Shown: positions 14,584 to 45,344, counted from the stretch's first letter. The stretch is DNA of 55,757 nucleotides from Bacteroidota bacterium (GCA_021300195.1 JAJTIE010000039.1:1-55757); one strand, 5' to 3'. The notes: generated from the sequence alone by a model not told the origin. Made by a program: numbers and translations.

Positions 14584-14615
14584 AAAAAAGAAAGGGCGGC
14601 CTACCAGGCCGCCCT
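14584..14615 (-). terminator. Strong terminator of the phage-like module
   Basis: AGGGCGGCC (14593-14601) and GGCCGCCCT (14607-14615) form a perfect 9-bp stem around a 5-base loop. On the minus strand it is followed by TTCTTTTTTGG. It ends the leftward operon 30 bases after the portal gene. There is no T-run on the plus side, so it does not serve lptC in the classical way. Confidence 0.88.
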
Positions 14616-14645
14616 GGGGTGTTCAGGTGTTTGCGGGGCATGGGC

Positions 14646-15857
14646 CTAGGCCTGCTCGGCCTCGCTGGCCGGTAGCCCGGCAGCTAGCAGGGGCAGGCCG
14701 AAGCGATGGGACAGATACTGGGGGTCTATGGGGTAGCGTTCGGCCAGTTTCAGCAGGTCGGCAGGGCTCAGCTGCTCATAGCGGCTGAAACGGAACTGTA
14801 GCCGGGCCAAGGGAGCCCCCAGCTGGCTGAGCCGGGGCAGCAGCTCGCTGTTCAGCACCCGCTCTACAAAGCGCAGGTCTGCCTGCACCAGCTGCTCCTG
14901 CATGGCCAGGTGCACCTCGGCCTGAGACCGGCTGCTGCCGCTATCGGTGGTCATGGTTTGGCCCAGTATCAGCTTGCTCAGTTCGGTATTACAGCGCTCC
15001 ACCAGTTTGTCATACACGGGGCTGCCATCGCTGCGGGCACTTTCTACAAAGTCCAGTTCCTCCTGCTTGTCCATCACAATGTGGTAGGCAGCCCGCATAT
15101 CGCTCAGCATATCGCTCAGGGCCTGTTTTCGGTCGGGGTCCAGGGCCTCCGTTTTGGCTATGGCCACCGGCATGCCGAATAGTTGGCAGTATTCGGCCCA
15201 AAACTTGGTGGCAGCCCGTTTCCACAGCACGTGCGGGGCGGCCTTGTACAGCAGCCCCAGGTCTTCCGGCTGGCCTACCTCTATCAGCTGCGTTTGCCAC
15301 TGCTCCACGCCCCGGTAGGGTATTTGCCTGCCTGCCAGGTGGCCATCGGCCAGCAGGTTGCCAGATATAGGCTCCACATACTGCATCGGAAATTTATACA
15401 CCCCGCTTAGTTTCCCCTGTTCCAGCGGGCCTAGCTCTATCAGCACATGGCCCTCCAGTCGGCTCTCCAGTATGGCGCGGATTGCATCCTCCAGCCAGGG
15501 CTGGTTCAGCCATTTTTTGGCCAGTGCATCCTCGCGCCCCCGGCTACTCAGCAGGCTGAAGTCTTGCGCCAGCACAGCCTCCTGCCGGTTTCGGATCAGG
15601 GCCGAGAGGTGGGCATCCAGACGTATCTCCTGGTATACCCGTGCCAGCTCTCGCCGCTGGGGGTGTTCTCGGCTTTCGGCATGCCGCAGGGCGCTTCGCC
15701 AGCTGCCTATGTCCTCGTTCATGCGGTGCAGGGTTCGCTGCATCAGCTGCTGGTGCAGCGGGCTGCTGCCACGGTAGGCAGCGTGTATGGGTGTGGGCGG
15801 GGTGGGGGCCTGGCTACTACGCAGCCGGCCACGCAGGGCATCTATCAGCTTGGGCAT
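14646..15857 (-). CDS. Mu gp29-like portal protein (DUF935)
   Basis: The protein matches the DUF935 family, the portal of Mu-type phages that forms the DNA entry ring of the head. The N-terminal segment ARVYQEIRLDAHLSALIRNR is the typical early motif; EGHVLIELG, KFPMQYVEP and ATKFWAEYCQLFGMP (the WAxFxExFGxP-like signature) follow, then LSKLILGQTMTTDSGSSRSQAEVH, a well-conserved loop. At 403 residues it is shorter than Mu gp29 (about 510), mainly at the C-terminus. It is the last gene of the module and is followed by a strong terminator. Codon use looks like that of the host neighbours. Confidence 0.85.
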   Translation of the reverse strand: MPKLIDALRGRLRSSQAPTPPTPIHAAYRGSSPLHQQLMQRTLHRMNEDIGSWRSALRHAESREHPQRRELARVYQEIRLDAHLSALIRNRQEAVLAQDFSLLSSRGREDALAKKWLNQPWLEDAIRAILESRLEGHVLIELGPLEQGKLSGVYKFPMQYVEPISGNLLADGHLAGRQIPYRGVEQWQTQLIEVGQPEDLGLLYKAAPHVLWKRAATKFWAEYCQLFGMPVAIAKTEALDPDRKQALSDMLSDMRAAYHIVMDKQEELDFVESARSDGSPVYDKLVERCNTELSKLILGQTMTTDSGSSRSQAEVHLAMQEQLVQADLRFVERVLNSELLPRLSQLGAPLARLQFRFSRYEQLSPADLLKLAERYPIDPQYLSHRFGLPLLAAGLPASEAEQA

Positions 15858-15911
15858 AAGGCTATGGGGGGGAAAGTGGTTGGAAAAAAATCGAGTGGTT
15901 CGGGGTGGGGG

Positions 15912-16334
15912 CTAAAATGCGCTCAGGTCTTCCTTGGGCAGGCCCCCGTAGCGGATGTCGGTTTCGGGCTGTTCGGCATTGCGTATACGGGCTGGCAGGT
16001 CTGCACTGCGCTCGCCATTCACCACGGCACGCACCCAGTCTGTAGCCTGGCGGTAGCGCTGCTGCCGTAGGTCGGGTATGCTGTGCGGGTTTACACGTGC
16101 AAAGAGGTGATACAGCAGCGTATCGGCCACGGCCTGCACCACCATGGCATGGCGGAGGATACCAGCTTGGCCAAAAATGACATCCGTATCATACAGTCCA
16201 TCCAGGTAGCTGCGCACCTCGGCCAGGGCTGCCCGCTCGGCCTCGTCCAGCAGGGTGGCATCTCCGCCGGTTATCTGTAGCAGCAGTTCCGGCTTCAGCA
16301 GCCGGTTCAGGTCAGTTTGGGTCAAAAAAATCAT
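15912..16334 (-). CDS. Mu gp36-like protein (DUF1320)
   Basis: The 140-residue protein fits DUF1320, relatives of Mu gp36, a head-tail connector-region protein. It opens FLTQTDLNRLLKPELLLQIT, followed by AALAEVRSYLDGLYD and a closing RNAEQPETDIRYGG, a typical end. In Mu the gp36 gene lies several genes after the portal and capsid genes; here it sits between terminase and portal, so order is rearranged or intervening genes were lost. About 36 bases separate it from the terminase stop and 54 from the portal start. Confidence 0.78.
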   Translation of the reverse strand: MIFLTQTDLNRLLKPELLLQITGGDATLLDEAERAALAEVRSYLDGLYDTDVIFGQAGILRHAMVVQAVADTLLYHLFARVNPHSIPDLRQQRYRQATDWVRAVVNGERSADLPARIRNAEQPETDIRYGGLPKEDLSAF

Positions 16335-16370
16335 GTTGTGGGGGAAATGAGTGTGATTGAAGGACGGTTG

Positions 16371-17837
16371 TTAGAAATCTTGTTTGGGCCGGACCCGGTA
16401 CACCGGCCCCGGGGTCTGCTGGTTCTGCTTCATTAGCAGTGCCAGGGCACCCTCCAGGGCATCGGGTCCGTCGTCGTGCGCGCGGCTGCCCGCCTCCAGG
16501 GCCATCAGCTGTGCCAGCAGGGTTTGGGTATCCGGGTCTTGTTGCAGGCCCGCTGCCCAGTACACCAGTCCCTGCTCAAAGAGTGTGGCCATGCGGCCAA
16601 TGCGGGTTAGCTTAGGCTCCTTCTTCCTATTGTCGGCCAGTATGGGTAGGGGGCTACCTGCCTCCAGGCCTTGGGTGTAGAAGGGCTGCAGGAGTGTTTT
16701 CTGGTGGAAGTTTGCCTCCATATACCAGCGGGTAATGGGCAGCTCGGCCTGGCGGCTGTAGCACCAGTGCACCAGCTCCTCCATGCGGCACTGGCGGCAG
16801 AAGCAGGCGAGCACCCAGTAGCGCTGCTGGTGTGCACACAGCACTACTGCGGCCTTGTAGTCGCCGGTCTCGGTCCAGCTGGGGTCTATGTAGGCCAGTG
16901 CGGGGCCGGGGCTGTACAGGGCCTCGTAGCGGATGTGCTCGGCCCGAAAGAGCGTGCCGGTGGCCACCGGGTTGTTGAAGTACTCCTGCTGGCTGCTGCG
17001 GTATCCCAGCCGGCGGATCATCAGCTGGATGTCGGCCAGGCTGTACTTGCCCGGCCAGGCCGATTCTCCGGCTTCGTTCAGTATGTTCACCCGCTGCAGG
17101 CAGGCCCCCGCTACCTGTGCCAGTTTTGTGATGATGCTGTGTGGGGCTATCACGTTGTTCAGGGCCAGCAGGCGTGTGGCCCCTGGGCTGCCCGCCATAT
17201 ACAGGCTCTCCATTACCCAGCGGTGGCTCTGCTCCACGCGTTTCGGGTTTCGGCATTCGTGGTCGTCGTCTATGTCATCCAGCCAGATAAAGTCGGGCCG
17301 CTTTCCTTTCAGCTGCTCCCCGCGCGGGTTCTGCCCCTTCCCGTATGCCCGGAAACCCCGGCCTCCCTGTAGGCTGAAGTCGCCCCTACGCCAGTGCCCC
17401 TGCTGCACTTTCAGCCCATAGTCTTCGCACAGCGCCCGGTTCTCCTCCAGTTCTATTTGCAGTTCGCCCATCAGCTTCAGAGCTTTCTCCCGGCTGCTGC
17501 TGGCCAGTAGGCCGAAGCGTAGCTTGCCCAGGCAGAGTAGCCACAGGATGGCCATGCGGGCGGTGCTGGTTTTGCTCAGCCCGCGCGCCCATTGGCACAC
17601 GATGAAGGCTGCTGGATCGGCCAGCAGGCTATGCGCCATCTGTAGCTGGAAAGGGGCCATTTCGGCCGTAGCTATGTGCGGGAAGTAGTGGGCGCAGAAG
17701 CCCGCAAAGTCGGTTTCAAACTGCTGGAGGCGCTTTTTCAGGCCGTGGTTTTGCTGGGTCTGTCGCTGCTTGTCCAGCAGGTTCTGCCGGTAGGCCGCCA
17801 GCTCTTTCTGTATCCGCTGTGCCTGGGCGGTGGTCAT
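16371..17837 (-). CDS. Phage terminase large subunit (Mu gp28-like)
   Basis: This is the ATP-driven DNA-packaging motor with nuclease domain. It has a Walker A-like ARGLSKTST preceded by CQW (about residue 82), a Walker B FIWLDDIDDD, and a coupling segment RLLALNNV. The RNase H-like nuclease has Asp residues in LAYIDPSWTETGDYKA and HDDGPDALEGALALL. All catalytic acids appear present, and the frame is unbroken over 488 residues from the ATG at 17837. It overlaps the upstream small gene by 4 bases (ATGA), so they are coupled. The intact active sites argue against simple decay. Confidence 0.88.
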   Translation of the reverse strand: MTTAQAQRIQKELAAYRQNLLDKQRQTQQNHGLKKRLQQFETDFAGFCAHYFPHIATAEMAPFQLQMAHSLLADPAAFIVCQWARGLSKTSTARMAILWLLCLGKLRFGLLASSSREKALKLMGELQIELEENRALCEDYGLKVQQGHWRRGDFSLQGGRGFRAYGKGQNPRGEQLKGKRPDFIWLDDIDDDHECRNPKRVEQSHRWVMESLYMAGSPGATRLLALNNVIAPHSIITKLAQVAGACLQRVNILNEAGESAWPGKYSLADIQLMIRRLGYRSSQQEYFNNPVATGTLFRAEHIRYEALYSPGPALAYIDPSWTETGDYKAAVVLCAHQQRYWVLACFCRQCRMEELVHWCYSRQAELPITRWYMEANFHQKTLLQPFYTQGLEAGSPLPILADNRKKEPKLTRIGRMATLFEQGLVYWAAGLQQDPDTQTLLAQLMALEAGSRAHDDGPDALEGALALLMKQNQQTPGPVYRVRPKQDF

Positions 17838-18124
17838 GCCAGCTGGATGATCAACCGGTCCAGCGCCTCTTTCAGCTCCAGAGACAGGGATTCGTCTGTC
17901 TGAATAATCTGCGCCATTAGGTGCCTGCACGCATGGCGAATCAGCTCCGGGTGCTGCTGAATATGATCTGTGCGCAGGGCGCAGCGGTGCAGCCGGTCTT
18001 TCATCCGGGTCAGGATGTCCAGCTCTTTGAGTGCAGTTTCCGGCTCGGCCAGGGCTTCAGTCAGGCGCTCGTCCAGGGCAGCCAGCTGCGCCCAGTCGGT
18101 GGTTTGACGGTTGTTTGCTTGCAT
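17834..18124 (-). CDS. Small helical protein upstream of terminase
   Basis: The protein of about 96 residues is predicted all-helical and charged, rich in Leu/Glu/Arg heptads (DERLTEALAEPETALKELD). I do not recognise a family. Its position, coupled by a 4-base overlap to the large terminase, suggests the role of small terminase subunit or Mu gp27-type helper; that is inference from context. The ATG at 18124 is chosen because TTCCTTTG, one base off the -7 consensus, lies 4 bases upstream; an earlier ATG at 18151 would sit upstream of that promoter. Confidence 0.6.
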   Translation of the reverse strand: MQANNRQTTDWAQLAALDERLTEALAEPETALKELDILTRMKDRLHRCALRTDHIQQHPELIRHACRHLMAQIIQTDESLSLELKEALDRLIIQLA

Positions 18125-18128
18125 GCCA

Positions 18129-18136
18129 CAAAGGAA
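18129..18136 (-). promoter_or_regulatory. Near-consensus -7 box TTCCTTTG of the phage-like module
   Basis: TTCCTTTG differs from TAnnTTTG at one base and ends 4 bases before the ATG at 18124, the same geometry as several host genes here. This would make a leaderless mRNA from a host-type promoter. Confidence 0.4.
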
Positions 18137-18236
18137 GCCCCCTGCTTTCAATCCGCCAAAAGGGCTTTCTTTACGGAGTGCTGTGGCCTACCCGCTTAGT
18201 TTTTCTGCTTACTCCAGCGGCTTTTTGCCCGCCAGT

Positions 18237-31951: not shown

Positions 31952-33361
31952 TTATCGGTACTTGCGTTGGGTAAGCCAGCGCTCGGTAAAGCTGATGCCT
32001 ACCATTAGCCGCAGGTTATTCTCGCGCACCAGGCTATTTCGGGTGGTGCCCTGCTGCGCCCACTGTGCGGCTATGTCCAGTTTATTGGCAGAGCCGCGTA
32101 TAATGGGTATGCCCAGCCCTACCGATGCCCCGTAGGCCTGGATGCGGTCGCTGCCGAACTTCAGGTAGGTCTGCTCATAAAACACACCGGCCCGGTAGGC
32201 TATGCGGCTGTAGAAAGGTGCACTGAAGTTGCCGGTTTCTCTATTGGGATACCATTCTCCGCCCAGGCCTACCTGCAGGCGGTCTTCCAGGCCTTGTTTC
32301 ACCCCATCCAGCTCATACTGGCTCCAGTTTTGTAGGCTAACGTCTAGCCCCAGCTGGTAGCGCAAGTCTCGCTGGAGGCCTATCCCCACCCCCAGGGTGT
32401 AGGGGAAGGTTGCGCCGGCTATTTTGCCGCGCGACAGGGTATCGCTAATGGACCGCTGGGTAGAGCCTCCCCCATTGTTTCTCAGCACCACATCTCTGCT
32501 TACGCCAGCCCATACTGGCAGGTCAGCTATCAGCCCCAGGCGGTATTCCGTGTAGCTGCGTTGCTCCTTACGCATTTGGTTCAGCTTGTGGGCATATCGG
32601 GCACTGTCTTGGCCTACCACCCGTTCACGCATCCGTTCCATCCGGGTACTCACCCTGTACAGGGTATCGCCAAACTGTAGGCCTAGCCGTGTGCGCAGGT
32701 TTTGCGGCTTATTGGTTTCCGTTATCTGGGTCTGTGTGCCGTCCTGTATACCCAGATATCTGCCATCGCTGGATAGATTGGCAAAGGCAGTATTAAAGTT
32801 ACGCTCTACCTGCCCGAAGAGGTAGGATACTTCCAGGCCAGCATTTAGCTGGCGACTTAGCCGCAGGCCGGTGCCCAGGTAGAAGCGATTGAGGCCACCA
32901 TTGCCCTGTGCCTCGCTCAGCAGGGTACGCCCGTCCGGGTCGTTGGTCAGGGTAACCAGGCGCCGCACCTCGTAGCCTGTACGGCTATAGGGTGCCAGGC
33001 CGCCTGTGATGGCAAAATTTAGGTTGGGCTTGGTAAAGAGAAAGGCCAGCTGGTTCAGGCCGCCAGCCTTGAAGGTGGCACTGCTTAGGTCGCTAGTAAA
33101 TGCTTGCTGGCGTATCTGTACGCTGAAGTCCAGCGTAGTAAATTGTACTACGGCGTTTCCTGCGGGGTTTATGCCATGGATGTGATAGCGGTCATATAGG
33201 GCAATGCCCACGCCACCCATGCCAATCTGGTTTAGCAGTCCGGGCTGCTGCAGTTCGCCCACCCCAAACTCTGAGTACGGACTGAACGTCTGCTGCTGGG
33301 CCAGGCCTACCTGGCTGGCAGAGAGCAGTGAAAGGGCAAACAGCAGGCGTTTCATAGGCAT
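31952..33361 (-). CDS. Outer membrane beta-barrel protein
   Basis: A signal peptide (about 1-21, ending VGLAQ) is followed by QTFSPYSEFGVGELQQPGLLNQIGMGGVGIAL and NPAGNAV. This pattern is typical of a Bacteroidota outer membrane family encoded next to coaX and distantly like OmpP1/FadL. The remainder is alternating amphipathic strands with a final aromatic barrel strand. Substrate is unknown. It lies 3 bases downstream of coaX and may be involved in envelope biogenesis given plsC next to it; this is inference. Confidence 0.8.
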   Translation of the reverse strand: MPMKRLLFALSLLSASQVGLAQQQTFSPYSEFGVGELQQPGLLNQIGMGGVGIALYDRYHIHGINPAGNAVVQFTTLDFSVQIRQQAFTSDLSSATFKAGGLNQLAFLFTKPNLNFAITGGLAPYSRTGYEVRRLVTLTNDPDGRTLLSEAQGNGGLNRFYLGTGLRLSRQLNAGLEVSYLFGQVERNFNTAFANLSSDGRYLGIQDGTQTQITETNKPQNLRTRLGLQFGDTLYRVSTRMERMRERVVGQDSARYAHKLNQMRKEQRSYTEYRLGLIADLPVWAGVSRDVVLRNNGGGSTQRSISDTLSRGKIAGATFPYTLGVGIGLQRDLRYQLGLDVSLQNWSQYELDGVKQGLEDRLQVGLGGEWYPNRETGNFSAPFYSRIAYRAGVFYEQTYLKFGSDRIQAYGASVGLGIPIIRGSANKLDIAAQWAQQGTTRNSLVRENNLRLMVGISFTERWLTQRKYR

Positions 33362-33364
33362 TTT

Positions 33365-34066
33365 CTACAGGGCAGACAGAATGCCCACCCCCTCCAGAAC
33401 CAAACTTGGGCATAGCTGCAGGGGTGCAAAGTTGCGGCTTTCCAGGGGTTTTGCAAATAGCTGGGCCTGCCCGCCTGTTAAAAAGACCGAAAGCTGTGGA
33501 AATTGCGCCCGCGCCTGTGCCATGTGCCCCTCCAGCTCGTACAGCAGGCCCTGCTGTACCCCCTGCTGTATGGCTGTGCGGGTGTCGGTGCCCAGGGCGG
33601 GCCAGGGTTCTACCGGCTGCAGGAGGGGTAGCCGGTGGGTGTAGGTGTGCAGGGACTGGTAGCGCAGGTGCAGCCCGGGCGATATGCTGCCCCCCAGGTA
33701 GCGCCCCTGGTTGTCTGCCAGGTCGGTAGTTACAGCCGTACCAACATCCAGCACCAGGCAGGCCCGCCTGTCGGCCCTCAGCCAGGCGGCATGTATGGCA
33801 CACCAGCGGTCGGCCCCCAGGGTGTGTGGGCTTTGGTACAGGCTGTGCAGTAGCCCAGGGCTTAGCCCGTCCAGCGCGGTAGCCTGCCGGGCTTGTAGCC
33901 AGCTGCTCAGGTCGGCTGGGCAGCTGCCCACAGCCGCATAGGCTACCGGAAGCCGGGTGGGCAGGCTATCTGGGGTGCCGGCATAGTCATGCACCTCCGT
34001 CAGGCTGCTGCCATCCCATAGGCCCCATTTTATCCGGCTATTGCCTATGTCTAGTACCAGTTTCAT
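33365..34066 (-). CDS. coaX: Type III pantothenate kinase
   Basis: CoaX phosphorylates pantothenate, the first step to CoA. It has the ASKHA fold motifs MKLVLDIGNSRIKWGLW, LGADRWCAIHAAWL and LVLDVGTAVTTDLAD, then GRYLGGSISPGLHLR. Length 233 is normal for the short bacterial form. The start overlaps the birA stop by 4 bases. panC and panD, which supply its substrate, are also in the window. Confidence 0.95.
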   Translation of the reverse strand: MKLVLDIGNSRIKWGLWDGSSLTEVHDYAGTPDSLPTRLPVAYAAVGSCPADLSSWLQARQATALDGLSPGLLHSLYQSPHTLGADRWCAIHAAWLRADRRACLVLDVGTAVTTDLADNQGRYLGGSISPGLHLRYQSLHTYTHRLPLLQPVEPWPALGTDTRTAIQQGVQQGLLYELEGHMAQARAQFPQLSVFLTGGQAQLFAKPLESRNFAPLQLCPSLVLEGVGILSAL

Positions 34067-34803
34067 CCAAATCGGATTTGCTTCAGATCGAACTGCCGGA
34101 TGCCGGCCTCGGTTTCAAGGTTGAGCAGGCCCTGGGGCGATATGCCTACTATCCGGCCCGTAATCTGCACCTCATTGCCCGCTGTGTCGGCCTGCCAAAA
34201 GGTATGTGGGCGTTCGCGCAGCCACAGCTGCGACCAGTAGGCTTCGTCCAGCGCTGCATATTGCAGCTGCTGTAGCTTCAGGTACCAGGCATTCAGCTGC
34301 TGCAGCAGCAGCTCCAGCAGCTCGCTTTTGCCAGCCGGATGGTGTAGCTGTGTGTGTGTGGCCGGCAGGCCTGCGGGGCTGCTCTGCACATTCAGCCCAA
34401 TGCCCAGTATGCTGTGCTGCACCAGGCTGCCCTGCACGCTGTTCTCTATCAGGATGCCTGCTGCTTTTCGCCCGCCAATCAGTACGTCGTTGGGCCACTT
34501 CACTTGCACGTCTGGTATATCCAGCGCCTGTAGTGCCCCCGCTACCGCCAGGGCCGTCATCTTGTTTAGCATAAAGCTGTGGGTGGCCTGTAGCCTGCGT
34601 GGGTAGATCAGCACACTCAGGGTCAGGTTGTCTCCGGCGGGTGCCTCCCAGCGGTTGCCCTGCTGGCCCCGGCCTGCCCGCTGGTGCTCGGCCACCACCA
34701 CCGTGCCATCTGGCCAGGGCCTATGCGGCTGGCTAAGCCGGAGCCAAGTGTTGGTAGAATCTACCGTATCCAGAAAAAGAAGCTGGCTGCCAATGAGCTG
34801 CAT
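34063..34803 (-). CDS. birA: Biotin--protein ligase BirA
   Basis: This enzyme activates biotin and attaches it to biotin-carboxyl-carrier proteins. It is the short ligase form without the N-terminal DNA-binding domain. Motifs are DTVDSTNTWL, EHQRAGRGQQGNRWEAP (the biotinyl-AMP loop), VKWPNDVLIGGRKAAGILIE and a C-terminal SH3-like segment ITGRIVGISPQGLLNLE. The ATG at 34803 is chosen because the -7 box TACCTTTG ends 3 bases before it; a TTG two codons earlier would overlap the box. It heads the long minus-strand gene block. Confidence 0.94.
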   Translation of the reverse strand: MQLIGSQLLFLDTVDSTNTWLRLSQPHRPWPDGTVVVAEHQRAGRGQQGNRWEAPAGDNLTLSVLIYPRRLQATHSFMLNKMTALAVAGALQALDIPDVQVKWPNDVLIGGRKAAGILIENSVQGSLVQHSILGIGLNVQSSPAGLPATHTQLHHPAGKSELLELLLQQLNAWYLKLQQLQYAALDEAYWSQLWLRERPHTFWQADTAGNEVQITGRIVGISPQGLLNLETEAGIRQFDLKQIRFG

Positions 34804-34806
34804 GCA

Positions 34807-34814
34807 CAAAGGTA
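34807..34814 (-). promoter_or_regulatory. -7 box TACCTTTG of birA
   Basis: This exact TAnnTTTG match lies on the minus strand with only TGC between it and the ATG at 34803. The transcript would be leaderless. It would head the twelve-gene block down to mrdA. Confidence 0.65.
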
Positions 34815-34899
34815 GTTGTCTCTTGCTGTTTTATTTGTGTACCTTGCGTCCTTTAATTTAATGCTACAATCGGTCTGTTTTTCTTCCCCATTTTTTTGA

Positions 34900-35265
34900 A
34901 TGACACATACACAGGTTGCCGCTCCGGTATTGGTAGAAGAAGTGCTGCGGGGCATACGCGAGAAGAAGGGATTCGACATCAGCGTGCTGGATATGCGCGG
35001 CCTGAAGAATGCCGTGGCCGATTTTTTCGTGATTTGCTCAGGCAATAGCGATACCCAGGTAGGGGCTATTGCAGACAGTGTGGAGTATGAGGTGAAGAAG
35101 AACCTGAAAGAGCGCGCCTGGCATGTGGAGGGCGAGCGGAAGGGGGAGTGGATCCTGGTAGACTTTGTAACGGTGGTAGTACACGTGATGCTGCCCCGTG
35201 CCCGCGAGTTTTATGGCCTGGAGGAACTGTGGGGAGATGCGCAGGTAACCCACTACGCCGAGTAG
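34900..35265 (+). CDS. rsfS: Ribosomal silencing factor RsfS
   Basis: RsfS binds L14 on the 50S subunit and blocks subunit joining when nutrients are scarce. The 121 residues carry the family pattern KKGFDISVLDMRG, ADFFVICSGNSDTQVGAIAD, WHVEGERKGEWILVDF and VVVHVMLPRAREFYGLEELW. It is divergent from birA, a common pairing in Bacteroidota; ftsH, often next, is absent here and the gene is instead followed by a probable terminator. Confidence 0.95.
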   Translation: MTHTQVAAPVLVEEVLRGIREKKGFDISVLDMRGLKNAVADFFVICSGNSDTQVGAIADSVEYEVKKNLKERAWHVEGERKGEWILVDFVTVVVHVMLPRAREFYGLEELWGDAQVTHYAE

Positions 35266-35303
35266 CTGCCCGGCTAGTTCCAGTATTACTTTTGGCTTGT
35301 TTT

Positions 35304-35341
35304 ACCTGTCTCGGCTGTTTCGGCAGAGCTGGCAGGTTTTT
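35304..35341 (+). terminator. Probable terminator after rsfS
   Basis: ACCTG (35304-35308) pairs with CAGGT (35333-35337), with a further CTG/CAG inner pairing around TTTCGG, followed by TTTTT. The stem has interruptions, so strength is uncertain. It lies between convergent rsfS and the MCE gene. Confidence 0.5.
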
Positions 35342-35391
35342 GCCCGCCCATGTGCGCTAAAATCGGCAGTTTTGGGTTCATCCGCAGTCCG

Positions 35392-36363
35392 CTACTTCTG
35401 TTCCTTATCCTTTTTATCCTTATCCCTTCGGCCAAAGACCGAGAAGTGCACATAGCGTTTGGGGTGCTTTGTCATGTCTTGCAGCAGGGCGTTTAGCGAG
35501 GCCGTAGTGGCCGTCAGGTTGGCATACAGGGCTTCGTCGTAGAGCAGTTTTCCCAGTGTGCCATCCCCCTGCTTTAGGTTATGGGTTATCTGCTTCAGGT
35601 CCTGGGCCAGGCGGGTTGTTTCGGTGGCCAGCCCCCGCACCTCTGCCAGGGTGGCTGCCAGGCTATCTGTAGCCTGCCGGGTGTTGCCCAGCATCTTTTT
35701 GAAGTCCGGATGGTCAATAAAGTTCTGGTTGGCATTATCGCTCAGGCGCTGGATGCTGGCCACCGTGCCCTTCAGCTGGTTGCTGATAAAGGCGATATTG
35801 GCCAGGGTCTGTTCCAGGTTTTGGATGCTTACGTTGGCCCTAGCATCTTCCCGGCGCATGATTTTATTGATCAGCCCAGTCATTTCTATCAGGTTGTCCG
35901 ACAGGTTGTTTATGCGGTCCAGTGTGGGGTTTACCGTACGGCCCAGCTTGTCGGCCAGGCCAGTGCCCACACTGTCGCGTATGGTGGCTCCATCCTCTAG
36001 CAGCTGCCCCGAGGTGCCTGGGTGCAGCTCCAGCAGCTTCTGGCCAAAGACGGGGCTGGTTTCGGTAAGTAGCAGGTAGCTGTCGGATGGCACCTTGATC
36101 TGAGACTGTATCTCCAGCTCTATCCGCACGGCATCCTGGCCGTCTCCCACAATCTCTCTGGCCCGAACGGTTCCCACGTCCACGCCCCGCAGGCTTACCT
36201 TGTCCCCACGGTTCAGGCCATCGGCACTGGGGAAGTAAACGTAAAAAGTATGGTTGGTACCCAGCACAGAGCGGCCGTTCAGGTAGCTGAGGCCAAAAAT
36301 AAGCATGGCCCCGGCTACTACCACCAGTATGGCTACTTTGGCTTCTTTTGTTATTTTCACCAT
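35392..36363 (-). CDS. MCE-domain lipid transport protein (MlaD family)
   Basis: One N-terminal membrane helix (about 8-24, ILVVVAGAMLIFGLSYL) is followed by an MCE domain with YFPSADGLNRGDKVSLRGVDVGTV, the hallmark start, and ends near LELHPGTSG. A long helical C-terminus follows (about 125-300), as in MlaD-like proteins of phospholipid transport between membranes. The very C-terminus is Lys-rich. The ATG at 36363 is preferred, with -7 box TACCTTTG 7 bases upstream. No MlaE or MlaF gene is adjacent. It converges with rsfS. Confidence 0.88.
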   Translation of the reverse strand: MVKITKEAKVAILVVVAGAMLIFGLSYLNGRSVLGTNHTFYVYFPSADGLNRGDKVSLRGVDVGTVRAREIVGDGQDAVRIELEIQSQIKVPSDSYLLLTETSPVFGQKLLELHPGTSGQLLEDGATIRDSVGTGLADKLGRTVNPTLDRINNLSDNLIEMTGLINKIMRREDARANVSIQNLEQTLANIAFISNQLKGTVASIQRLSDNANQNFIDHPDFKKMLGNTRQATDSLAATLAEVRGLATETTRLAQDLKQITHNLKQGDGTLGKLLYDEALYANLTATTASLNALLQDMTKHPKRYVHFSVFGRRDKDKKDKEQK

Positions 36364-36370
36364 CACCGGG

Positions 36371-36378
36371 CAAAGGTA
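36371..36378 (-). promoter_or_regulatory. -7 box TACCTTTG of the MCE gene
   Basis: This exact TAnnTTTG match on the minus strand ends 7 bases before the ATG at 36363, so the mRNA leader would be very short. Confidence 0.6.
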
Positions 36379-36507
36379 GCAACTATCCATAAAGTCTCGA
36401 AGTCTCGGCTAGCTGCTATCGGTTTGTTGAGTACGTAAAATGGTCCATTTAGCACGGCAAATGTGCAGTTCAAAGAAGAAAATTCACCGTTTAGGGGGGA
36501 CTAAAAC

Positions 36508-36547
36508 ACTTGTACGATGGATTAGCGTACATTTGTTGCGTACAAGT
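36508..36547 (+). promoter_or_regulatory. Promoter of WecA-like gene inside a 9-bp inverted repeat
   Basis: The -7 box TACATTTG (36528-36535) lies in the 22-base spacer of a perfect inverted repeat, ACTTGTACG (36508-36516) and CGTACAAGT (36539-36547). A second repeat, GTTGTT-T-AACAAC, follows at 36546-36558. The first would let a dimeric regulator straddle the promoter; the second lies in the early leader. The gene starts at 36589. No regulator gene is adjacent, so the binder is unknown. Confidence 0.5.
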
Positions 36548-36588
36548 TGTTTAACAACAATAAAGAACCAGCCTAAATAAATAAGGGA

Positions 36589-37728
36589 ATGATCCTGATT
36601 TCATTGTTCTTGCTTACGCTTGCTTTTTCTTATGTGCTCAATGCCGTACTCATAAATTACGCGGGCAGGCTCGGTCAGCTGTCGCAGGGTGTAACCACCC
36701 AGGTTCGCTGGGCCAGTACGAGCAAGCCCCTGGTGGGGGGCATTGCCTTTTTCATCCTTTTTCTCATTGGTGCGGTTGTGTACACCCTTATCCCGCATAC
36801 TGCGGCCTATGAGGCCTCCGAAAACTACCTGCCCTTTCTGCTGGCAGTTACCCTCGGCTTCCTGGTTGGGTTGGCAGACGATGCGTACACTACAAGGCCC
36901 CTGCTTAAGTTTATCGGCCAGCTGGGCTGTGGCTTCATTTTGCTCGGCTTTGGCATCCAAATCCACCTGTTCAACCATGCGCTGGCAGACGGTATGCTAA
37001 CGATGCTGTGGGTAGTGGGGCTAATGAACAGCATAAACATGCTGGACAATATGGATGGCGTTACGGGCAGCACCTCTCTGGTCATTGTGTTTTTCACGCT
37101 AATGGCCATGTACCTTACGGGCCAGACCAGTAATGTGTTTTTCTACCTTTTTGTGGGGATAGCTGGCAGCCTGGCAGGTTTCCTGATTCTAAACTGGCAC
37201 CCCAGCAAGCTGTATATGGGCGATACGGGAAGTCAGTTTCTGGGTGCCATACTGGCCTATGCCGGTATTGTGTATTTCTGGAATATCCACCAGGTGGTGC
37301 CTGCGGCTGCGGGTGTGCCCCAGGTGGTGTTGCCGCTGCTGGTTTTTTTGATGCCGATACTGGACACCGCCTTTGTAAGTGTAGCCCGCCTGCGCCGGGG
37401 GCAGAGCCCCTTTGTAGGGGGGCGAGATCACACAACCCACCATTTGTGCCACTTTGGGGTGCCACAGGCTTGGGTGCCGCTTGTCTTTGGCCTGGCTGGC
37501 AGCATTGGGGGCGGGGCTGCACTCCTGATGATATGGGCCAGCCTGTTTAATATCACCGATGCGCTTATGCTTCTCTCGGTTCCCATTACTGTGTTCGGTA
37601 TCTTTCTATACATCTACCAAAGGGGATTGGCTAAGAGCAAAGTGCGCCAAATGAAAGCGCATGCGCCCATTGTTAGCCTGGGCAAGGATGAACCACGCCA
37701 GGCAGCCTTGGCGGTCTCGGCGCGTTAA
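36589..37728 (+). CDS. WecA/MraY-like sugar-1-phosphate transferase
   Basis: This multi-pass membrane enzyme would transfer a sugar-1-phosphate to undecaprenyl phosphate, starting a surface glycan. Seen motifs are KPLVGGIAFF, GLADDAYTTRPLLKFIGQ, the catalytic NSINMLDNMDGVTG, KLYMGDTGSQFLGA, and the C-terminal GRDHTTHHLCHFG His box typical of WecA-type rather than MraY. About eleven membrane segments are visible in 379 residues. It overlaps the next glycosyltransferase by one base (TAATG), so they act together. Confidence 0.88.
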   Translation: MILISLFLLTLAFSYVLNAVLINYAGRLGQLSQGVTTQVRWASTSKPLVGGIAFFILFLIGAVVYTLIPHTAAYEASENYLPFLLAVTLGFLVGLADDAYTTRPLLKFIGQLGCGFILLGFGIQIHLFNHALADGMLTMLWVVGLMNSINMLDNMDGVTGSTSLVIVFFTLMAMYLTGQTSNVFFYLFVGIAGSLAGFLILNWHPSKLYMGDTGSQFLGAILAYAGIVYFWNIHQVVPAAAGVPQVVLPLLVFLMPILDTAFVSVARLRRGQSPFVGGRDHTTHHLCHFGVPQAWVPLVFGLAGSIGGGAALLMIWASLFNITDALMLLSVPITVFGIFLYIYQRGLAKSKVRQMKAHAPIVSLGKDEPRQAALAVSAR

Positions 37729-38948
37729 TGCGCATCCTCTGTCTGCATCAGTATTTTTGCCCGCCCACAGGCTGGGGAAACGATCGGTCGTATCAGCTGA
37801 TGCAGCATTGGGCCGATGCGGGTCTCGGGATTCGCTGTATTACCAGTAAGGCTTATTTTCCGGATGCCGATGACATCCGCAGGCCCGAGTGGCGGCGGTA
37901 TGGGCAGGTGGAGGTGCTTATCTTGCCAGTGGCCTACCAGCAGTCCTACTCGCGGGTTCGGAAGATCTGGGCCTACCTCCGGTTTGCCGCCTGGGCAGGC
38001 CTGGCTGCCCTGCAAGAGCGGCCCGATGTGCTGTGGGTAAGCATTACCCCGCCGCCACTGGGCTGGGTGGGCGGCCTGCTACGGCGCCTGATGGGGGTGC
38101 CCCTGGTGCTGGAGGTGGTGGATGTGTGGCCCGAGGTGCCCCAGGGCATGGGCCTGCTGCAGGATGGCCCCCTGCTGTGGCTGCTAAAGCGGCTGGCACG
38201 CTGGACCTACCTGCAGGCCCGCCAGGTATACGTACTTAGCCCCGGCATGGCAGCCCAGCTGCAGCCCTACCGGCTACCGGCGCATATCTCCCTATCGGTT
38301 AGCCTGAATGGCACAGACCTGGCACAATTTGTGCCCCGAAGCGCAGGCCCGGTAGGGGGGCCGCCCCCCCTGCGCATGGTGTATACCGGTGCCCTGGGGC
38401 AGGCCAATGCGGTGCACGAGATGATCCTGGCACTGTATGTATGGAAAACTGCCGGGCATACGCACTGGAGCCTGGACCTATACGGCTGGGGAAAGGAGGC
38501 GGGACTGATAGCCCAGCTGATACAGGAATACAGGCTGGCCGATCAGGTACGGCTGCATGCCCCTGTGACCAAGGCTATGCTGAATGAGCGGCTGCAGCAG
38601 GCCCACCTGGGTCTGGTTTGCTTTGCGCCCCATGCTGTGCTGGAGGCCAATAGTGCGAACAAGTTTTATGACTACCTGGCCGCAGGCCTGCCGGTGCTGC
38701 TAAACTACCGTGGCTGGCAGGCCGAGCTGGTGGAGCAGCACCGCTGTGGCTATGGGTGCCCCCAGGGCGACTGGAAGGAGTGGCTGCGACGACTGGACGA
38801 CCTGGCGGCTGACCCCGACGCGCTGCGCACTATGCGGGCAAATGCACGGCAATTGGCTACTGCCCAGTTTGATCGGCTGCAGCTTGCGCAGCAGCAGGCT
38901 CTGCGCTTTCGGCAGTTGGCTGCTGAAACAGCAGGTATACGTAGCTAA
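37728..38948 (+). CDS. Glycosyltransferase family 4 (WcaI-like)
   Basis: This 406-residue GT-B enzyme opens MRILCLHQYFCPPTGWGNDR, the usual WcaI-like start, and has VLWVSITPPPLGWVGG and LVLEVVDVWPEVPQGMG in the acceptor half. The donor half has MVYTGALGQANAVHEMI and APHAVLEANSANKFYDYLAAGLPV, matching the ExxxxNSxNKxxEYMA-like nucleotide-sugar motif. It overlaps the WecA-like gene by one base and probably adds the second sugar. Its last 92 bases overlap the 3' end of the gene on the other strand. Confidence 0.87.
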   Translation: MRILCLHQYFCPPTGWGNDRSYQLMQHWADAGLGIRCITSKAYFPDADDIRRPEWRRYGQVEVLILPVAYQQSYSRVRKIWAYLRFAAWAGLAALQERPDVLWVSITPPPLGWVGGLLRRLMGVPLVLEVVDVWPEVPQGMGLLQDGPLLWLLKRLARWTYLQARQVYVLSPGMAAQLQPYRLPAHISLSVSLNGTDLAQFVPRSAGPVGGPPPLRMVYTGALGQANAVHEMILALYVWKTAGHTHWSLDLYGWGKEAGLIAQLIQEYRLADQVRLHAPVTKAMLNERLQQAHLGLVCFAPHAVLEANSANKFYDYLAAGLPVLLNYRGWQAELVEQHRCGYGCPQGDWKEWLRRLDDLAADPDALRTMRANARQLATAQFDRLQLAQQQALRFRQLAAETAGIRS

Positions 38949-39885
38949 GCCCACCCACCACTACATTCAGCAGCAGCTGGGGCGTGTGTAGCACCAGGGC
39001 TACCATTACGCCCGTATCTTGCCCCAGGCCATACAGCAAAAAGGTGGTGGCTATGGCCTGGTGAAAGGGACCAATGCCCCCTGGCACGGGCAGGGTCATG
39101 CCCACGCCCCCCATGGTAGTGAGCACCAGCGAAAACCAGAGACCATGCCCCCTGCCGATGGGCAGAGACTCTACAAAAAAATAGGTGGTGGCCCAGTAGC
39201 CCACCCAGATAAGCAGGCTAAGCAAGACAAACACCCAGGGATGCCTAAGGTGCAAAATACTCAGCATGCCATTTAGCAGCCTGCGCACAAAGCCCCACAG
39301 GCTGGCCAGTACCGGTATGCGGGCTATACGCCTGCGTAGGCGGAGCAGCAGCAGGCCGATGATGAGCATAACCCCCACGGCAAGCAGAACTGCCCAGAGG
39401 GGTAGGGTATCCAGGGGGTTTTGTGCCAGCTGGAAATAGCCGGTTATCCGCTCGTAGTCTCCCAGCAGCACCGTCAGCAGCAGCAGGCCCAGTAGCAGCA
39501 CGTCTACTACCCGCTCTGTTACCACGGTTCCGCCACTTACCAGCAGGGGTATGCGGTTGGTCTTGATCAGCAGGCTACAGCGGGTTACCTCGCCCAGGCG
39601 CGGCACGGCATAGTTTACCATATAGCCCACCATTACTGCTGCCGAGGTGCGCAGGCTACTCACGGGGTGCCCGGCTGCGCCCAGTAGCATGCTCCAGCGC
39701 AGGCCACGTGCGTAGTGGGCGGCCAGGCTAGCCACCAGGGCCAGCACGATGAGGCCAGTATCTGCCGCCTGCAGGTTATGCCACAGGGCTGCAAAGGATA
39801 TGTTTCGCAGTGCGAGGTATAGCAGCCCGCCCCCCAGGCCAAATCCACCCACATACAGCAGTATAGCCTTTAGCCGCTTGTTCAT
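38857..39885 (-). CDS. Lysylphosphatidylglycerol synthase-type flippase membrane protein
   Basis: A 342-residue protein with about eight membrane segments fitting the LPG_synthase_TM (UPF0104/AglD-like) family. Signatures are ARGLRWSMLL, VNYAVPRLGEVTRCSLL (the YxxPxRxGE motif), TVVTERVVDVLLLGLL, and GGVGMTLPVPGGIGPFH. These proteins move or modify lipids, but the substrate here is unknown. The tail after residue 325 is an Ala/Glu-rich low-complexity end, which lies inside the region antisense to the GT4 gene. It overlaps panD by 4 bases. Confidence 0.82.
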   Translation of the reverse strand: MNKRLKAILLYVGGFGLGGGLLYLALRNISFAALWHNLQAADTGLIVLALVASLAAHYARGLRWSMLLGAAGHPVSSLRTSAAVMVGYMVNYAVPRLGEVTRCSLLIKTNRIPLLVSGGTVVTERVVDVLLLGLLLLTVLLGDYERITGYFQLAQNPLDTLPLWAVLLAVGVMLIIGLLLLRLRRRIARIPVLASLWGFVRRLLNGMLSILHLRHPWVFVLLSLLIWVGYWATTYFFVESLPIGRGHGLWFSLVLTTMGGVGMTLPVPGGIGPFHQAIATTFLLYGLGQDTGVMVALVLHTPQLLLNVVVGGLSYVYLLFQQPTAESAEPAAAQAAADQTGQ

Positions 39886-40217
39886 TGGGCCAGGCGGTTA
39901 TGCAGGTCGGGAAACACCACGATAGGCTCGTAGCTTCTGGCTGCTTGCACCTCCATCAGGGCGTAGGAGATGATGATCAGGATATCGCCCGGTGCAGCCA
40001 GGCGCGCAGCCGGGCCGTTTAGCCCCACAATGCCACTGCCCCGTTCTCCGGCTATGATGTAGGTCTCCAGCCGGGCTCCATTGTTCAGGTTTACAATTTG
40101 CACGCGCTCATTGGGCAGCATTTGGGCAGCATCTACCAGATCCATATCCAGGGTTATGGATCCTACGTAGTTTAGTTCTAGCTGATTCACCCGCACGCGG
40201 TGAATCTTGGATTTCAT
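39882..40217 (-). CDS. panD: Aspartate 1-decarboxylase PanD
   Basis: PanD makes beta-alanine for pantothenate and self-cleaves to a pyruvoyl enzyme. The cleavage site is in ELNYVGSITLD (Gly-Ser), and NGARLETYIIAGERGSGIVGLNGPAARL is diagnostic. Length 111 from the ATG at 40217 is normal; a longer reading from 40274 adds a non-conserved stretch. It is preceded by panC and overlaps the next gene by 4 bases. Confidence 0.94.
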   Translation of the reverse strand: MKSKIHRVRVNQLELNYVGSITLDMDLVDAAQMLPNERVQIVNLNNGARLETYIIAGERGSGIVGLNGPAARLAAPGDILIIISYALMEVQAARSYEPIVVFPDLHNRLAQ

Positions 40218-40270
40218 CATTGTTACCAGCATGGGCCAGGGGAAAAGAGGGACAAAAGTACAAATTCGTT

Positions 40271-41115
40271 TCAAGCAGACACCACATTGTCTATCAGGCG
40301 TACGGGGCCAAAGTAAACAGCTGCCAGAATGGCTACCCGTGGGGGCCGCTGCCCCCCCGTGGGGGGGTGCAGGGTATCATGGTCTACCAGGGTCAGGTAG
40401 TCTATCCGGGCCTGGGGTTCTGTAGCCAGGATGCCGGAGCCTGCCGCCAGCGCCTCCTCCCTGCTTGCGCCGGCCTCCCACTGGGCCAGGCTATGCTGTA
40501 GTGCCCGATACACCACCGGCGCGGCAGCCCGCTGGGCGGCACTCAGGTTTCGGTTTCGGCTGCTCATGGCCAGGCCATCGGCCTCGCGCAGGGTGGGCAC
40601 ATACGCAGCACGATTGGGCTAAATAGGTCTGAGAGCATCCGGCCTACTACGCGGGTCTGCTGCAGGTCTTTGGCACCCATGTATAGGTAGGTGGGCTGCA
40701 CCAAGTTCAGCAGCTTGGTTACTACCAGGGCTACTCCGTCAAAGTGGCCGGGCCGCGCGGCCCCCTCCAGCACCTCGGATACGCCTGCTACATGTAGCTT
40801 CACGGCACTTGGGCCATTCGGATACATGTCCTCTGCCGTGGGCAGCAGCAGGCTGTGGCAGCCAGTGTGGCTTAGCAGGGCCGCATCTTCAGCGGGCATG
40901 CGCGGGTAGCTGCTCAGGTCTTCGGCCCGGTCAAACTGCGTGGGGTTTACAAAGATGCTGGCTACTACGGTGTCGCATTCTTCCCGCGCGGCTTTCACCA
41001 GGGCCAGGTGGCCGGCATGCAGGGCCCCCATGGTGGGAATAAAGCCCACCCGATGGCCGGTGGGTACCTGGGCACGCCAAGCCCGAAAAGCCGAGACGGA
41101 AGAGAGTATTTTCAT
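40271..41115 (-). pseudogene. panC: Pantothenate synthetase PanC, frameshifted
   Basis: PanC joins pantoate and beta-alanine. The first frame (from 41115) has VGFIPTMGALHAGHLALV, SIFVNPTQFDRAEDLSSYPR and LYMGAKDLQQTRVV, then runs out of frame after PIVLR. The second frame resumes with VPTLREADGLAMSSRNRNLS and runs to the normal C-terminus at 40271. One base is missing at about 40600-40603; adding it restores 12 residues between the conserved DL and VP, as in E. coli and M. tuberculosis PanC. The rest is intact and panD is whole, so a sequencing error or a recent mutation are both possible. If real, the cell could not make pantothenate by this route. Confidence 0.9.
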
Positions 41116-41122
41116 AAGCGGC

Positions 41123-41130
41123 CAAAAATA
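41123..41130 (-). promoter_or_regulatory. -7 box TATTTTTG of panC
   Basis: This exact TAnnTTTG match on the minus strand ends 7 bases before the panC ATG. The panC-panD-flippase transcript would have almost no leader. Confidence 0.55.
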
Positions 41131-41203
41131 GTGGAGAAAAAATTGCGAGTTATAAAAAAAAGACAGTAAGTTGCCGCAACTTGATAAATTCGGGTGGATT
41201 CCG

Positions 41204-41211
41204 TACCTTTG
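41204..41211 (+). promoter_or_regulatory. -7 box TACCTTTG of the GT5-like gene
   Basis: This exact TAnnTTTG match ends 27 bases before the ATG at 41239, which also rules out the GTG at 41194 as the start. Confidence 0.65.
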
Positions 41212-41238
41212 CGATCCAGTTCCACTAACTCACCTCTT

Positions 41239-42057
41239 ATGGAAAAACTTCGGATCCTGTACGCCACCATGGAGATTGACCCATTTCTGGTACTGTCCGA
41301 TTCCGCAAATTTTATCCGTTCTCTCCCACAGGGGCTACAGGAAAAGGGCCACGAAATCCGAATCCTGATGCCGCGCTTCGGTGTTATCAACGAAAGAAGA
41401 AACCGGTTGCACGAGGTAGTACGCCTGTCGGGCATAAACATCCGGGTAGGAAATGAAGAGAAACCCCTCACCATCAAGGTAGCTACCATACCCAACGCTC
41501 GCCTGCAGGTATATTTCCTGGATAACGAGGACTACTTTCAGCGCAAGAGCGTACTTACGGACCCGAAGAGCAAGACTTTTCACGAAGACAACCACGAGCG
41601 TTCCATCTTCTTCTGCAAAGGAGTGATCGAAACCGTGCGCAAGCTGGGCTGGACACCCAACATCATCCACTGCCATGGCTGGATGACTGCACTCATCCCC
41701 CTCTACCTGAAAACGCACTTTCGCGAGGATCCCATTTTTCGTGATAGCAAAACGCTGTATACGGTGTATGACAATGAGGTGAGCGAGAAATTACCTGATA
41801 ATTTTGCCGAAAAGGCCCGTCTGGACGGTACGCCCGAGGATCTGCTAAATGAATATCGAGGAGATACCTACCTGGGTGTAAGCCGGGGCGGCATCAAGCT
41901 GGCAGATTTTGTAACCCAGGGCAGCACCACCGTGCACAGCGAGCTGCACAGCACCCTGGCAGAAGTGGAAAAACAAGATAGATTTGCAACCATCACCGCC
42001 GACCACGCAGACGGGGTGGACTCCTACAATGACATCTACAAGAAAATCCTCAACTAG
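41239..42057 (+). CDS. GT5 (starch/glycogen synthase) N-lobe-like protein
   Basis: The 272 residues match only the N-terminal domain of glycogen/starch synthase: RILYATMEIDPFLV, IRSLPQGLQEKGHEIRILMPRFG and PNIIHCHGWMTALIPLYLK. The glycine-rich KxGGL motif that binds ADP-glucose is replaced by LVLSDSANF, and the whole C-terminal donor lobe is absent. It is therefore unlikely to polymerise glucose on its own. Such short proteins recur beside panC and DUF4270/glmS in Bacteroidota, so this is a family trait, not local damage. It overlaps the next gene by 29 bases. Confidence 0.8.
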   Translation: MEKLRILYATMEIDPFLVLSDSANFIRSLPQGLQEKGHEIRILMPRFGVINERRNRLHEVVRLSGINIRVGNEEKPLTIKVATIPNARLQVYFLDNEDYFQRKSVLTDPKSKTFHEDNHERSIFFCKGVIETVRKLGWTPNIIHCHGWMTALIPLYLKTHFREDPIFRDSKTLYTVYDNEVSEKLPDNFAEKARLDGTPEDLLNEYRGDTYLGVSRGGIKLADFVTQGSTTVHSELHSTLAEVEKQDRFATITADHADGVDSYNDIYKKILN

Positions 42058-43420
42058 GCGCATTCATCGTTTTGCGCATACGGCCTCCGGTAGGCAGGCT
42101 CCGCATCAGCGGCTCATTCTCGCTATCGCAGTAGTACTATGTGCGTATGGCCTGGTGGGCTGTAGGGAGCCCGACATTGTGGATGTGGGCCTGAATACCC
42201 CGGCTAATGTGGGCTACCTGGATAGTGCAACAGTAGAACTGGATACGTTTATACCCACGCTGGATTCGCTCTTTACCAAAAATGTGACGGCTGCCGTGCT
42301 AGGCAACTATACCGACCCCGTGCTGGGCCGCGTGAATGCTGAAATTTACACCCAGATTAGCCTCCCCGGGGCCAACGTAGCCTTCGAAGCCGATGCCGTG
42401 GCCGACTCTATCGTCCTGTTTCTGCCACTGGTGGACTACTATGGCAAGCCCAGCAGCAGGCTGAATCTGGAGGTATATGAACTGACAGAGAGTATTGCGG
42501 ATGGCACGAACTACTATGCCACCAGCCGCTTTGCCACAGGCACAACCGAGCTGGGCGGCGGTGCCAGCTTTGCCCTGGCTGCCGATAAGCTTGGTTCTGA
42601 CACAATCAAGATCAAACTGAATGTAAGCCTGGCCCAGCGTATACTAGACGCTACAAGCGATCAGCTGGCCAATAACACGAACTTCCACCAGTTTTTCAAG
42701 GGTTTGCACATCAAGACCCAGCCTGTGGTGGGCGATGTGGGGGTGGTGTACACCGTAGCCCTCCGAAATGTACTGGTGGGGAGTGCGGCACCTGCCTCGC
42801 TGAAGATCTATTACCGGGGCACCGGCGAAAACAAAGTGTATACCCTAACGGTGCAGAGTGGCGTAACACAGCGCACCAACTACCTGGAACGCGGGGATAT
42901 AAGTGGCACCCTACTGGGCCAACTGGTGGGCGATGCCGCACCGATTGGCCGACAAGTGGCTATACTACAGTCCATTTTTCCGGTTCAGGTGCGTGCCAAA
43001 ATCAGCAAGCTGCCAGCCAACCGGATTGCCATCAATCGTGCCATACTGGAGCTGCCGGTGGATACCACCTATGTGGACAGCAATCCCTTCCTGTATTACC
43101 GCCCTATCCCCAGGTCGCTACAGCTCTACCAGGCCGACGAGACCGGAGAGAAGATTGATCGAAAGTCTGCCATCCTGAATCAGAGCGACTTTTTGCCCGC
43201 AACCGATCGGTACGAATTTAATATAACCAGCTATTTGAACCAGTATTATGAGCAGGACGGTGTGATAAATGACCTGCTACTGGTACCAAACTCGCTTGCC
43301 CTGGTGTTCACCAGTAGTGGGCTGCCCACTTTTGCCAGTGCCGCCCGCTCTGTACTGGGCAATATAGACCACCCAACGCGCAGGCCGCGCGTACGCGTGT
43401 ATTACACAAATCTGCCGTGA
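42029..43420 (+). CDS. DUF4270 lipoprotein
   Basis: The N-terminus has a signal with lipobox YGLVGC (Cys at about residue 43), so this is an outer-membrane or periplasmic lipoprotein. The body matches DUF4270: DIVDVGLNTPANVGYLDS, AVLGNYTDPVLGRVNAEIY, ADSIVLFLPLVDYYG and the C-terminal NSLALVFTSSG. It is a beta-rich protein of unknown function, mostly found in Bacteroidota beside glmS. The ATG at 42029 lies within the end of the preceding gene; no later in-frame start precedes the signal sequence. Confidence 0.85.
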   Translation: MTSTRKSSTRRIHRFAHTASGRQAPHQRLILAIAVVLCAYGLVGCREPDIVDVGLNTPANVGYLDSATVELDTFIPTLDSLFTKNVTAAVLGNYTDPVLGRVNAEIYTQISLPGANVAFEADAVADSIVLFLPLVDYYGKPSSRLNLEVYELTESIADGTNYYATSRFATGTTELGGGASFALAADKLGSDTIKIKLNVSLAQRILDATSDQLANNTNFHQFFKGLHIKTQPVVGDVGVVYTVALRNVLVGSAAPASLKIYYRGTGENKVYTLTVQSGVTQRTNYLERGDISGTLLGQLVGDAAPIGRQVAILQSIFPVQVRAKISKLPANRIAINRAILELPVDTTYVDSNPFLYYRPIPRSLQLYQADETGEKIDRKSAILNQSDFLPATDRYEFNITSYLNQYYEQDGVINDLLLVPNSLALVFTSSGLPTFASAARSVLGNIDHPTRRPRVRVYYTNLP

Positions 43421-43426
43421 GTGGTG

Positions 43427-43434
43427 TATCTTTG
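43427..43434 (+). promoter_or_regulatory. -7 box TATCTTTG of glmS
   Basis: This exact TAnnTTTG match lies just after the DUF4270 stop and ends 49 bases before glmS. No glmS ribozyme-like structure is evident in the short leader. Confidence 0.65.
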
Positions 43435-43483
43435 CCTGTTTAGCCCTGTTCGGGTTCTTTTCGTTGAATAATAGGATCATATC

Positions 43484-45322: not shown

Positions 45323-45344
45323 CCAGCGAGACCTGGAACGAAAT

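Follow-up and report, generated by a model that had tools for sequence, protein, structure and literature searches.

A packaging locus among host genes

The window, i.e. the whole stretch of 55,757 nucleotides from a Bacteroidota genome (G000) that was analysed, carries at positions 14593-18136 a compact locus of four intact minus-strand genes (locus 1). In the order of the minus strand, these encode a small terminase-like protein, the large terminase TerL, a gp36-like adaptor and a Mu-type portal, and they are flanked by host genes, with a rimO/exported gene on one side and lptC on the other. The features are as follows, with the box in the first line also occurring at the head of the clpP operon on contig C28 and at both operon heads of a second genome (G001):

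18122-18139, minus strand: promoter-like box GGCTTCCTTTG-N3-CATG, immediately 5' of terS
17834-18124, minus strand: terS-like gene, the first of locus 1, 96 aa; predicted helical throughout, no N-terminal HTH
16371-17837, minus strand: TerL, large terminase, 488 aa; phrog_38 (E 5e-63), Terminase_6C
15912-16334, minus strand: gp36-like head-tail adaptor, 140 aa; PF07030 (E 4e-9), phrog_195
14646-15857, minus strand: Mu-type portal, 403 aa; PF06074 (E 2e-73), without a fused MuF domain
14593-14615, minus strand: intrinsic terminator-like hairpin 3' of the portal gene; 10-bp stem and T tract

The terS-like reading frame starts at 18124 and yields the 96 aa given above. TerL starts at 17837, where its ATGA overlaps the terS stop, and its length is thus 488 rather than 519 aa. 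The profile matches (PF06074, PF07030, phrog_195 and phrog_38) bear out an earlier note on this DNA, which had described an intact minus-strand packaging set in this order. The same is true for the Walker and nuclease acids that it had reported as intact: Walker A (RGLSKT), Walker B (DD) and the nuclease acids of TerL are all conserved in alignments with phage homologues. A solved structural relative of TerL was not found by sequence. The strong terminator of the earlier note corresponds to the hairpin downstream of the portal gene, and the composition of the locus is host-like as it had stated (GC 0.619 versus 0.615-0.630 in the flanks). Its remark that gp36 is out of Mu order is correct with respect to Mu itself, but not with respect to Bacteroidota Mu-like relatives, 66 of 66 of which have the order TerL-gp36-portal, so that gp36 is not misplaced within this group.

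Neither an integrase nor a transposase is found at locus 1, and the window beyond this locus contains no further phage-related gene that we could detect, with the exception of one ORF at 31952-33361. Its one match is an ORF of L075, a phage-bearing Bacteroidales contig (E 1e-23), and may be a host gene there. The window also includes an AT-rich gene for an acyltransferase-like membrane protein (45315-46520; GC 0.39-0.45 versus 0.57), which is likely to be a recent horizontal gain.

Capsid, tail and lysis genes on a different contig

That capsid and tail genes are missing is true for the neighbourhood of locus 1, but not for the genome as a whole, and the designation of the module as an 'orphan' has to be given up at the genome level, since capsid, protease, lysis and tail genes are all present on another contig (C28). 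These genes form locus 2, and a third locus lies nearby:

C28:6132-16086, minus strand: locus 2, cluster of about 10 kb with host genes on both sides
C28:14404-15318, minus strand: major capsid protein (MCP); own MCP profile (E 7e-49), phrog_267
Locus 2 (C28), minus strand: ClpP-type head protease; phrog_94 (E 2e-43)
Locus 2 (C28), minus strand: amidase endolysin; PF01520
Locus 2 (C28), minus strand: holin; PF05105
Locus 2 (C28), minus strand: lipoprotein-like gene
Locus 2 (C28), minus strand: tail-region proteins of 302 aa and 221 aa
Locus 2 (C28), minus strand: short tape measure, 363 aa
Locus 2 (C28), minus strand: virion structural protein, 824 aa; phrog_15220
Locus 2 (C28), minus strand: 464-aa protein
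C28:1596-4125: locus 3, separated from locus 2 by about 2 kb of host genes

Locus 2 also includes a hub/receptor-binding region. The MCP was detected with a profile built from 23 Mu-like MCPs of Bacteroidota, which gave exactly one match in G000 and one in G001 (contig C71, E 8e-48) and was positive in four of six prophage-bearing control genomes. By contrast, Pfam models for MuF (PF04233), gpT (PF10124) and the HK97 capsid (PF05065) had zero matches in G000 or G001. The capsid is thus visible only with a purpose-built profile, and a search with Pfam alone would wrongly have confirmed an orphan module.

The MCPs of G000 and G001 are 75% identical, whereas identity does not exceed 37% in 395 further genomes of the class and mostly 44-52% to the nearest IMG/VR phages, which have the full phage set. 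In the MCP tree, G000 and G001 are grouped with a support of 99, and their sister is L102 (IMGVR_UViG_3300037311_000081), a 5.9 kb phage contig with a ClpP-type protease, a MAGLNKE-type capsid and an HTH-bearing TerS, which represents the best proxy for the ancestor of the domesticated capsid. Long branches make the TerL tree unreliable, and a portal scan of IMG/VR gave zero relatives. A further genome of the same order (G002) has many relatives of the tail genes at 30-40% identity in several places (L121, L124, L127 and L130-L132, on C17, C47, C52, C58, C63 and C78), with a Mu-like capsid or portal being absent there; they may belong to several further prophages or to particles derived from tails.

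Among the phage relatives, 67 loci contain both genes; the distance between MCP and TerL does not exceed 3.4 kb in any of them, and in 62 the two lie on opposite strands. In G000, the two genes are found on different contigs with host genes between, at a distance of at least about 30 kb, which is a lower bound given by the gene distances to the ends of the two contigs. In G001, host genes on contig C132 (for an ABC transporter, a PLP enzyme and a TPR protein) stand between the tail end and terS. The Mu-like phage arrangement, i.e. MCP beside TerL and MuF after the portal, is not present in G000, and neither MuA/MuB genes nor Mu ends were seen at loci 1, 2 or 3. With its parts spread out between host genes, the element would probably be unable to package itself as one piece.

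The same three loci in a second genus

With targeted profiles applied genome-wide, the system was found in two genomes only, both of them draft assemblies. G001 (MAG ACE_BAC9, JAHBTG01), the one other genome of this family that the analysis covered, belongs to a different genus from G000 and has loci 1, 2 and 3 with intact frames. Its locus 1 is distributed over C132 (terS-terL) and C30 (end of terL-gp36-portal), and its locus 2 comprises the same genes in the same order across C71, C8 and the start of C132, with every contig break falling inside a shared gene. In a scan of 84,980 species' genomes, G001 was the sole close match; all others had at most 33% identity, were mostly Bacteroidales and in many cases had phage-like surroundings. 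The set is therefore not confined to one strain, whereas the earlier note had named such confinement as speaking against its reading.

Between G000 and G001, identity is 58-61% for TerL, 58% for the portal and 51% for the gp36-like adaptor. The terS-like gene, which encodes 99 aa at the same place in G001, is poorly conserved (21%). Overall, identities are mostly 38-75% (lower for terS), as compared with 47-81% for eight host genes on the same contigs. This similar divergence fits vertical descent from a family ancestor, which two genomes cannot prove; with only two draft genomes, co-diversification rests on matching divergence and not on congruent trees. In every alignable pair, codon position 3 differs more than position 2 and the frames are open, i.e. 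there is no sign of the relaxed selection that the earlier note had considered as a second counterargument. GC3 of the system genes (0.61-0.80) is like that of host genes. Domestication, as it had been proposed, is thus supported on several counts: the set has persisted in more than one genus, its codon positions are constrained, its GC3 resembles that of the host, and host genes flank it.

These data also bear on whether we are dealing with decaying, scattered remnants of an old prophage that survived by chance. In line with such decay, the loci are spread among host genes, TerS is shortened, MuF was not found and Mu transposition genes were not seen at loci 1, 2 or 3. Yet the frames have stayed long and intact in both genera at 40-75% identity, differences are in excess at third positions and two operon heads have promoter boxes in common, none of which chance survival would be expected to leave behind. 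This explanation is quite improbable.

The conserved position that the earlier note had proposed to look for in related genomes was not recovered: G001 has the four genes as well, but the neighbours of its locus 1 are glnA, which encodes a type III glutamine synthetase, and a TPR gene, not lptC. Such different positions in the two genera show mobility or rearrangement after domestication. One could therefore envisage a satellite or split mobile element, in which the packaging module moves alone and uses a capsid made elsewhere, and the change from the rimO/exported gene and lptC to the TPR gene and glnA would be in its favour. However, locus 1 lacks an integrase or transposase, and the capsid gene belongs to the host itself, is present in one copy and is conserved to the same degree. 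In addition, satellites usually have specific packaging signals and a TerS with a DNA-binding domain, a domain that is missing here. We regard a satellite as very improbable indeed. A further observation on synteny concerns glmS (window 34063-45322, L093:8436-19689): the G001 capsid locus is about 6 kb from glmS and the G000 packaging locus about 25 kb, hinting at an ancestral common neighbourhood.

A regulatory locus and a shared promoter-like box

Locus 3 was first found on contig C70 of G001 by a gp37-like match to a profile of the MuF-gpG-gp37 arm. It consists of a CI/S24-like repressor gene (HTH_3 and Peptidase_S24 domains) divergent from a gene for a small acidic protein, together with genes for a Gam-like DNA-end protein (PF07352, E 1e-5, under the family cut-off), a small HTH-like protein and a gp37-like protein; one small protein of this locus has 73 aa and matches phrog_17154. 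Set and order are identical in G000 (C28) and G001 (C70). The repressor genes are located as follows:

L091:3379-4125 and L151:10601-11329: CI-like repressors of locus 3 in the two genera

The S24 serine/lysine pair is present in the G001 repressor and replaced by alanine/arginine in G000. The latter protein is thus probably not self-cleaving, which suggests that the repressor of one genus has become uncoupled from SOS-type cleavage. The MuF-gpG-gp37 arm profile detected MuF in the control genomes G011, G019 and G097 but in neither G000 nor G001, and targeted profiles did not find a gpG counterpart in these two genomes either, so the head-completion set may be incomplete. The unlinked Mu-type genes anticipated by the earlier note have therefore come to light for capsid and tail, but not for MuF.

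The near-consensus host promoter described upstream of locus 1 exists as a box, but in a variant form, TTCCTTTG, whereas ordinary leaderless promoters of G000 read TANNTTTGN3-5ATG (TANNTTTG). In both genomes, GGCTT(T)TCCTTTG-N3-4-CATG is found immediately 5' of the first ATG of loci 1 and 2, with one of these four operon-head boxes reading CGTTTTCCTTTG. Across the two genomes, the motif TTCCTTTGN3-5ATG has 6 and 5 occurrences, as compared with 2 and 5 for the reversed control. In each genome, only three of them precede real gene starts: those at the heads of loci 1 and 2 and one before a further gene, which is mtnA in G000 (C4:8242, L109) and bioA in G001 (C46:3797, L110). As the remaining TTCCTTTG matches precede mtnA, bioA or no real gene, the motif gave no further locus. 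The box is absent from the terS and clpP starts of the nearest phages examined.

A domesticated particle could also serve another purpose, such as the killing or lysis of competitors, the transport of cargo other than DNA or a controlled lysis of its own cell. The lysis and tail sets are complete and the hub in G001 has a lectin-like domain, both of which would suit such a function. Killing needs no terminase, however, and yet TerL, portal, adaptor and capsid are constrained, the ATPase and nuclease acids are intact and the packaging and capsid operons have the same promoter box. A purpose other than DNA packaging thus seems unlikely.

A short small terminase-like protein without an HTH

In phage relatives, TerS has 143-255 aa (median 151 aa) and an N-terminal HTH in 68 of 69 cases, the one exception having 112 aa, as compared with 96 aa in G000 and 99 aa in G001. 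With hhalign, the terS-like protein could be aligned to phage TerS in its C-terminal half only, and weakly so (E 0.0033, probability 9.8%). Its predicted structure is helical with low confidence (pLDDT 62.6), and a fold search with this model gave no meaningful match. A shortened, HTH-less TerS has been proposed as a mark of gene transfer agents (GTAs) (PMC6854486; PMC11841831), with the GTA-type protein being encoded directly before terL, 10-50% shorter than phage TerS, helical and free of an HTH (PMC6854486). Position, shortness, predicted helical nature and lack of an HTH are in line with this for the proteins of G000 and G001; homology to TerS is weakly supported.

A probable dispersed GTA-type system

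Overall, we propose, with a probability of roughly 0.7, that locus 1 serves DNA packaging in a domesticated GTA-type particle system whose genes are dispersed and which originated from a Bacteroidota Mu-like phage. The particle would probably pack pieces of the bacterium's own DNA. Among the options raised by the earlier note, a GTA-like system with its other parts elsewhere is the one borne out, with capsid, protease, lysis and tail genes being unlinked in G000 and again in G001.

In such a system, the repressor and the shared promoter box would switch the loci on together, and MCP and protease would form capsids around the portal. TerL and the TerS-like protein without its usual DNA-binding domain would then pack host DNA with no sequence choice, probably by a headful mechanism. 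The short-tailed particles would exit via holin/endolysin lysis and could deliver DNA to kin. Mu itself uses headful packaging and packages host DNA attached to its own genome, so a Mu-like ancestor could plausibly have come to package host DNA at random in a short step, by losing the DNA-binding domain of its TerS.

GTAs are defined by particle proteins derived from tailed phages, full endogenization, often at several loci, mostly vertical inheritance with co-diversification with the host, own genes that are not packaged as a whole, and particles that hold mostly random host DNA and deliver it to other cells (PMC9662315). Here, terminase, portal, adaptor, protease, MCP, endolysin, holin and tape measure all belong to tailed-phage families, and three loci are endogenized among host genes in both genomes. 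A dispersed, constrained and apparently co-controlled set without seen means of self-transfer thus agrees with this definition in its phage-derived particle genes and in their endogenization at several loci.

Few GTA lineages have been established by experiment, and most of these are alphaproteobacterial. In our literature search, the coverage of which was incomplete, no paper reporting a GTA in Bacteroidota was found. We consider it reasonably probable, if less firmly held than the GTA-type nature itself, that this is a new independent GTA lineage of Mu-like ancestry, apparently the first in Bacteroidota, which has lost the DNA-binding part of TerS, has retained a Gam-like DNA-end protein and relies on a CI-like repressor that lacks the self-cleavage residues in one of the two genera. 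If true, this would mean an independent GTA origin and a new route of gene exchange in a phylum that plays a key part in the breakdown of polysaccharides and in the communities of gut and aquatic habitats. The transition from phage to GTA, a long-standing question, would become directly testable, and apparently orphan phage genes could hide such systems.

Comparison with known systems

The GTA of Rhodobacter capsulatus (RcGTA, Rhodogtaviriformidae) is alphaproteobacterial and has a single core cluster of about 15 kb. As in the system described here, its genes for head, tail and packaging stem from a phage and have been retained by the host at several loci, and a short HTH-less small terminase is encoded 5' of TerL (PMC6854486). 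The Bacteroidota system differs in its host phylum, in its Mu-like portal, gp36 adaptor and Mu-like capsid and in being split into packaging, capsid/tail/lysis and regulatory loci; it matches the GTA definition (PMC9662315) in those genomic traits that could be established here. BaGTA, Brachyspira BhGTA (VSH-1), Desulfovibrio Dd1, Methanococcus VTA and FpGTA I are likewise independently domesticated tailed-phage systems, but of separate origins and in other hosts. FpGTA I of Faecalibacterium has a possible TerS without an obvious DNA-binding domain beside TerL, portal and MCP (PMC12946183).

Bacteroidota Mu-like prophages (for example L098-L103 from IMG/VR, L083 from Alkaliflexus, and those of Porphyromonas and Bacteroides) have clearly homologous TerS-TerL-gp36-portal and protease-MCP-tail arms. 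In these prophages, however, the arms are adjacent and usually divergent, an HTH is part of TerS, and MuF is encoded after the portal or fused to it, whereas in the system described here the arms are split, both the HTH and MuF are absent and each piece is flanked by host genes.
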